Shown here: positions 16,479 to 17,950 of the stretch, one piece after another | Numbering within the stretch: position 1 is the stretch's first letter | How the letters are laid out: each line of letters begins with the position of its first letter | Origin: Latilactobacillus curvatus JCM 1096 = DSM 20019 | Lineage (GTDB): Bacteria; Bacillota; Bacilli; Lactobacillales; Lactobacillaceae | Length of the DNA: 64,000 nt | NCBI RefSeq assembly: GCF_004101845.1 | Contig: NZ_CP026116.1 | Coordinates: forward strand, 186,001 to 250,000 | Direction: 5' to 3' | Notes under the pieces: model-generated | What the model saw: the letters and a program-made list of their open reading frames with translations, nothing else | What the model was told of the DNA's origin: nothing | Database searches by the model: none | Program-made: the position numbers and the translations under genes

Positions 16479-16566
16479 GTTGTAATTGTGAGCTCCACAG
16501 CTGCAACCGCGCATACTAAGGCATTAAGTACTATGATTAGTCACCTTAGTTGGCGAGTCTAAGAAA
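16479..16566 (+). ncRNA. Probable L21 leader (ribosomal-protein autoregulatory element)
   Basis: The untranslated leader of rplU folds into two hairpins: GTTGTA/TGCAAC enclosing TGTG/CACA (16479-16507), and ACTAAGG/CCTTAGT (16515-16521 with 16544-16550). Firmicute rplU operons are known to carry an L21 leader that is thought to bind L21 or L27 and regulate the operon. Position and size fit; I could not compare it with the Rfam model. Confidence 0.6.
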
Positions 16567-16583
16567 AAATAGGAGGTGCACAC

Positions 16584-17570: not shown

Positions 17571-17600
17571 AAACACCCACTTTGTGTGGGTGTTTTTTTT
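17571..17600 (+). terminator. Terminator after rpmA
   Basis: AACACCCAC pairs perfectly with GTGGGTGTT (17572-17580 with 17586-17594), followed by a T run. Confidence 0.93.
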
Positions 17601-17632
17601 GTGCGAGAGAAGCGGGGCTGTCGTCACATTCT

Positions 17633-17739
17633 AAACGTGTTCCATCAGTCATATCTCTCCGGTTAACCCAGAGTCACAAATGATTGCTCCACAATCTTTT
17701 GCGACTCTGGGTTAATCCTCGAGATATCCCAGACTGATG
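17633..17739. repeat. Intergenic palindromic element, copy A
   Basis: A long imperfect hairpin of about 97 bases: CATCAGTC/GACTGATG (17643-17650 with 17732-17739), ATATCTC/GAGATAT, a 13-14-bp arm around GTTAACCCAGAGTC (17662-17675 with 17703-17715), and a small inner stem GATTG/CAATC. It begins with AAACGTGTTCCATCAGTCAT, which recurs with one change at 38818. There is no coding frame. It could act as a bidirectional transcription block or be a dispersed mobile-type repeat. Confidence 0.75.
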
Positions 17740-17773
17740 TCACACTCTGTTTGTGTAAATCCAGTTTTACTGG

Positions 17774-17779
17774 TATACT
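17774..17779 (+). promoter_or_regulatory. Extended -10 promoter of the candidate small RNA
   Basis: TATACT preceded by TGG (extended -10 TGn), with TTGTGT 17 bases upstream as a weak -35. It points to transcription from about 17786. Confidence 0.55.
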
Positions 17780-17785
17780 AATTAC

Positions 17786-17886
17786 TCAGGCAACAAACCA
17801 TTGACAATCTAAAAGTGAGTGTTCAGATCGACTTTTGCTCGATTGAATACGCTAAAAGGGATTGGCGGGTGCCGGTCCCTTTTTTT
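17786..17886 (+). ncRNA. Candidate small RNA (orphan promoter, hairpin, terminator)
   Basis: About 100 bases between an extended -10 promoter and a strong intrinsic terminator (AGGGATTGGC/GCCGGTCCCT, 17857-17880, then T run). Internally, CAATC/GATTG and AAAAGT/ACTTTT (17805-17816 with 17831-17845) form a long hairpin. efp has its own promoter downstream, so this unit looks separate. It matches no RNA family I recognise. An efp attenuator leader is the alternative. Confidence 0.45.
17857..17886 (+). terminator. Terminator of the candidate small RNA
   Basis: Ten-base-pair stem (two G-T pairs), loop GGGT, then seven T. Confidence 0.85.
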
Positions 17887-17920: not shown

Positions 17921-17950
17921 TTGCTTTTGAGCCTGATTTCTTGCTATGAT
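17921..17950 (+). promoter_or_regulatory. Probable efp promoter
   Basis: TTGCTT (17921-17926), 18-base spacer, TATGAT (17945-17950, 5/6). A TATAAT nearer the gene (17970-17975) would start transcription inside the ribosome site and is less likely. Confidence 0.6.

Follow-up and report, generated by a model that had tools for sequence, protein, structure and literature searches.

A predicted genus-specific small RNA gene between rpmA and efp of Latilactobacillus, with a probable target in the leader of ltaS

On the evidence of its sequence, the interval between rpmA and efp in Latilactobacillus encodes a well-conserved, genus-specific small RNA (sRNA), which probably controls the lipoteichoic acid synthase LtaS, because the part of it that is best conserved is a complement of the beginning of the ltaS message. 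The favored reading is that an independently transcribed RNA of about 100 nt base-pairs with the ltaS 5′ leader and changes translation or stability, which is judged probable though well short of certain. The gene lies in the window, that is the whole 64,000-nt stretch of Latilactobacillus curvatus DNA that was analyzed (G000:C1:186001-250000); G000 is the window's own genome and one of the six Latilactobacillus genomes of the comparison set (G000-G005). The names rplU, rpmA and efp derive from translations and from a preliminary description of this DNA, and a family-model check was made for ltaS alone. The RNA-gene layout noted in that description is partly confirmed and its interpretation as a small RNA gene is supported; a stand-alone gene is the best-supported reading, in view of the putative promoter, invariant 15 nt and terminator found in all six genomes, the separate efp promoter and the ltaS site. 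The features of the locus are as follows:

17571-17595, + strand: rpmA terminator, found by a mechanical motif scan, which separates the sRNA from rpmA
17751-17779, + strand: putative sRNA promoter, with a weak -35 and an extended -10 in the sequence, much of both kept in 6/6 genomes
17785-17886, + strand: predicted sRNA body of about 100 nt, from layout, fold and covariance model, its 5′ start placed from the position of the -10
17796-17819, + strand: 24-nt complement of the ltaS leader, whose partner (G000:C1:31589-31612) lies outside the window
17798-17812, + strand: invariant 15-nt stretch CCAUUGACAAUCUAA, mostly unpaired
17819-17850, + strand: predicted middle hairpin, of diverged sequence
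17854-17886, + strand: intrinsic terminator with a 13-bp stem, a 4-nt loop and a T-run, from sequence, fold and pairing conservation
17921-17950, + strand: separate putative efp promoter, with an 18-nt spacer and a TG before the -10

The extended -10 of the sRNA, TGGTATACT (17771-17779; pattern TG-G-TATACT), stands 17 nt downstream of a weak -35, TTGTGT (17751-17756), so that the promoter of this type recognized in the preliminary description is confirmed. The same holds for its strong intrinsic terminator, kept in all six genomes, whose stem arms (17854-17866/17871-17883) enclose a loop at 17867-17870 and run into a T-run at 17880-17886, and for its body of roughly 100 bases, which agrees with both layout and fold. 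The best fold of the 104-nt RNA has an energy of -32.8 kcal/mol (z -3.05, with 1 of 200 shuffles equally good), an advantage over shuffles that is due largely to the terminator. The long internal hairpin proposed earlier (CAATC..AAAAGT with ACTTTT..GATTG) does not survive: combined with the terminator it reaches -24.4 kcal/mol versus the value just given for the best fold, and among the other species G003 and G001 retain it in part and G004, G005 and G002 lack it. The favored middle hairpin, unlike the proposed one, starts at about 17819. As also stated in the preliminary description, no coding frame is supported: frames read in the six-species alignment include none that is shared across the sRNA region, and the one at 17815, which is open in G000, G003 and G001 (with an ATG in G001), meets a stop in the other three, after 5 codons in G004, 6 in G005 and 14 in G002, and has no Shine-Dalgarno sequence. 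An alternative promoter built on the TTGACA inside the 15-mer was rejected, having no conserved -10. Since a mechanical promoter and terminator scan flags neither the sRNA promoter nor the sRNA terminator, and its motif finds approximate the shuffled expectation, motifs alone are weak, and the case for an sRNA gene is carried by conservation.

Between the rpmA terminator and the putative sRNA promoter lies an imperfect palindrome of about 115 bp (17636-17750; fold of 17600-17770, z -7.0), a member of a dispersed repeat family with 13 matches in the genome, counting itself and its own reverse complement. None of the seven copies examined, this one included, is inside an open frame of at least 100 codons; two matches adjoin each other at G000:C1:1013354-1013574, and a diverged copy occupies the equivalent position in G001.

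The sRNA locus is single-copy and syntenic in 6/6 genomes, always between rpmA and efp, in a gap of 303-443 nt. Over a region in which pairwise identity falls to 57%, CCATTGACAATCTAA (17798-17812) is identical in all six; an invariant run of 15 or more columns arises in 14 of 10,000 column permutations, which ignore relatedness and neighbor effects, and the mean unpaired probability of the stretch is 0.68-0.81. The middle region has diverged, with mostly zero or one invariant column per 15, and a hairpin is predicted there in each of the six species (z -1.6 to -3.3, p 0.062 in two); RNAalifold, applied to the alignment, does not show the middle hairpin but folds the conserved stretch on itself in six pairs, with an unfavorable covariation term. 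At the terminator, 93.6% of 78 cells are paired and two pairs have changed on both sides, with a covariation as high in 25/500 shuffles and its further pair types reached by 471/500. That the locus is nothing but conserved DNA, giving no functional RNA, is very improbable: conservation does extend upstream of the -10, and a functional RNA is argued from sequence, but the terminator keeps its pairing through those two-sided changes and the shape of the hairpin is kept as well.

The range of the RNA appears to end with the genus. Although 128 of 201 family genomes return something in a DNA search at E ≤ 1, only the six genus members do so at E ≤ 0.001, and no such RNA was seen in the 11 of 24 returned non-genus loci that were read by eye. 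A covariance search, which the preliminary description had named as a check, scores 80-116 bits in 6/6 Latilactobacillus genomes; among 301 family genomes 114 have a match at E ≤ 0.1, and only genus members attain those scores. The next-best matches have 37.3 bits (in G005, on the other strand of this locus) and, outside the genus, 36.5 bits. The 24 non-genus loci listed by this search and inspected contain at most 12 of the 15 letters of the conserved stretch and are terminator-like, as are two weak matches within the genus, and the one other match in 295 genomes of the order (41.3 bits) is a terminator after an open frame. An exact-pattern scan of a GTDB-based collection, incomplete in that the motif-bearing G000, G004 and G005 are absent from its listing, gives at least seven places, three in Latilactobacillus and four within open frames of unrelated bacteria; in viral contigs the search for the pattern gave 0. 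An Rfam scan, another check named there, brings no family to its gathering score at the sRNA, where the best sub-threshold match is Ref66 (20.3 of 92 bits); weak matches, mir-2319 among them, are due mostly to the palindrome and to the terminator of rpmA. In the window only RF00559 reaches the gathering threshold, away from the sRNA: it is the ribosomal protein L21 leader upstream of rplU (16495-16570, 62.7 bits), likewise an RNA element nearby, but a separate leader of unrelated sequence.

The surroundings of efp also differ outside the genus. In six of 24 non-genus efp loci, rpmA immediately precedes efp at a distance of 124-161 nt, whereas the longer Latilactobacillus gap holds the RNA. Another 13 have the end of an Xaa-Pro peptidase-like frame (pepP, named by eye) before efp, with rpmA visible further upstream in five of these, and the remaining 5/24 show some other arrangement; no pepP remnant was found in the Latilactobacillus rpmA-efp gap (best E 0.42). 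A second gene resembling efp, with about 50% identity to the EF-P of the window, lies at G000:C1:1716769-1717311 and is present in 6/6 Latilactobacillus genomes.

The sequence before efp indicates that this gene has its own promoter, separate from the sRNA, and here too the preliminary description is borne out: a -35 TTGCTT (17921-17926) and a -10 TATGAT (17945-17950) follow the terminator, the arrangement ACTTGCTTTT ... TTTCTTGCTATGATTAG is common to 6/6 species with invariant runs of 10 and 17 columns, and visual inspection of six printed regions upstream of efp in other genera shows a similar promoter. This conserved promoter directly before efp speaks against a quite unlikely alternative, in which the RNA is a cis-acting attenuator of efp whose conserved stretch pairs, through CAAUCU, with the 5′ arm of the terminator as an antiterminator. 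Such pairing is indeed predicted in 6/6 species for an RNA truncated ahead of the terminator 3′ arm, and the element keeps the same strand and a fixed position before efp; however, in a test on three of the six sequences, equally good pairing was given by 236 of 1500 shuffled 15-mers, so that the competing pairing is not conserved beyond chance, and full-length folds are 10.8-14.2 kcal/mol lower than cut ones. The arms do not help this alternative either, with 1 versus 3 variable positions in the core eight and 5 versus 4 over the 12 printed. The locus resembles transcription attenuators and riboswitch leaders in that a terminator precedes a housekeeping gene and a competing pairing is possible; here, by contrast, that pairing is within the range of shuffles, efp appears to have its own promoter and no Rfam leader matches.

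The proposed partner emerged when the six genomes were searched for a 12-mer seed complementary to the conserved stretch, with up to one mismatch allowed; this gave 100 sites compared with 30 for the reversed pattern. Locus-by-locus comparison leaves one leader common to the species, that of ltaS, in 6/6. The sites read comprise 38 in G000 (16/16 non-self seed sites and 22/23 of another pattern search) and 15 chosen elsewhere, followed, once the shared ltaS leader had been noticed, by 78 further non-self seed sites of G001-G005; because the ltaS link came to light only after several pattern searches, it is subject to some selection. The encoded protein matches NCBIfam NF053595 (lipoteichoic acid synthase) with 623, 616 and 620 bits for three partial proteins, below a cut-off of 970 that applies to whole proteins, and a Pfam sulfatase domain is present in the two proteins tested.

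In all six genomes the site starts 54-57 nt before the start codon of ltaS, upstream of GGAGG, and shares with the sRNA an unbroken core of 10 pairs within a 24-nt register that has 20 Watson-Crick pairs in G000 and G002 and 19 in G003, G001, G004 and G005. By composition, 0.02 matches of at least 20/24 and 0.24-0.28 of at least 19/24 are expected per genome, both strands counted. Of 94 seed-complement sites, the top six are those of ltaS; because the search used the 12-mer alone, the other 12 positions provide the fairer test, and there the ltaS sites have 8-9 pairs versus a mean of 2.6 and a maximum of 7 at 87 others. Pairing in the actual register is 80.8%, against 24-41% when the register is slid. 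Two pairs have changed on both sides, column 18/31 being A-U in G000, G003 and G001 and C-G in G002 and G004/G005, and column 20/29 being G-C but A-U in G001; the covariation score is reached by 8/500 shuffles and the number of such pairs by 72/500. Columns 4, 19 and 23 are unpaired in some species and columns 2, 16 and 22 never pair. Duplex energies are less specific to species and site, the G000 sRNA being slightly better on the ltaS of G001 (-20.5) than on its own (-20.2) and the G004 sRNA better on the ltaS of G002 than on its own; over a wider window, other sites score above ltaS.

Could the similarity be something other than RNA pairing? The sRNA gene and the ltaS promoter might carry, in opposite orientation, the same regulator-binding or promoter-derived sequence, by common origin or through a common transcription factor. 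This explanation, which is unlikely, would account for the position of the ltaS site on or just after a possible -10, and for the mismatches that every species shows at register positions 2, 16 and 22, a pattern possible for two diverged copies; RNA pairing is nevertheless the simpler explanation where, at two positions, both copies have changed together in the same species, and the sRNA copy belongs to a 5′ part predicted to be transcribed and mostly unpaired, while the ltaS copy shows no consistently kept palindrome.

A genuine sRNA might alternatively have another mRNA, or a protein, as its main partner, the ltaS match being incidental. The excess of weaker complements over the reversed pattern, possibly a coding bias, leans that way, as does a start-proximal site in a hesB-like gene of G000 and G001, but among the sites read none except ltaS is common to the six species, and exact seeds near GGAG occur at 17, 4 and 5 places in the six genomes versus 11, 1 and 3 for controls; this alternative is accordingly rather improbable. 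The hesB-like gene (named by eye) has a strong ribosome-binding site and an 11-nt complement of the conserved part of the sRNA at codons 10-14 (G000:C1:940974-940985). A conserved intergenic stretch, with ATATTGTCAATGG (G000:C1:1538016-1538027), precedes an ABC-type ATPase frame (also named by eye); it is nearly identical in G000, G001, G004 and G005 and forms 16/24 pairs in G004 and G005. A site at locus L171 with 18/24 pairs, found in G000 only, is situated opposite an open frame.

Under the preferred reading of a base-pairing regulator of ltaS, the sRNA would be transcribed from its own promoter and ended at its own terminator, the ltaS transcript would include the pairing site, and upon meeting, the conserved stretch and its flank would pair with the ltaS leader and alter ltaS translation or mRNA stability. 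A terminator upstream of ltaS (L112:1344-1373) suggests that this gene starts its own transcript. A possible ltaS promoter, TTG[AC]TT - 17 nt - TAAACT, is conserved in the six species, with its possible -10 overlapping the pairing region, and was not flagged by a formal promoter scan in G000; if used, it would start the message near the first letter of the core, so that the flank pairs would be absent from the RNA. In a short-leader model, with the leader starting 10 nt ahead of the core, the predicted exposure of GGAGG increases in 6/6 species when the site is blocked, for example from 0.19 to 0.39 in G000 and from 0.06 to 0.11 in G004. Because a control block after the start codon gives much the same rise, and since, with 30 nt added to the leader, blocking lowers exposure in G004 and G005 and leaves it flat in G000, the sRNA may either raise or lower LtaS. 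The more specific model, in which a genus-wide dedicated sRNA switches on ltaS, is tentative and on balance doubtful; in it, the ltaS leader would hide its ribosome-binding site by pairing it with the sRNA-bound stretch, and the sRNA made beside efp would open the leader, tying synthesis of the envelope polymer to the conditions of the sRNA promoter.

Trans-acting sRNAs that base-pair with 5′ leaders are exemplified by DsrA-rpoS and FasX-ska. The Latilactobacillus RNA is like them in its predicted own promoter and terminator, its conserved and accessible, unpaired stretch, and a long imperfect complement, itself conserved, in the putatively transcribed leader of an mRNA encoded elsewhere; it differs from them in having no Rfam match, in being found only in that genus and in its partner, ltaS. 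Neither such a regulator of ltaS nor a small-RNA catalogue for Latilactobacillus appeared among the literature matches listed, from a source whose scope leaves out most subscription journals. Lipoteichoic acid is a cell-envelope polymer made by LtaS, and the finding, if true, would give the envelope gene ltaS of food lactic acid bacteria a named small RNA regulator.
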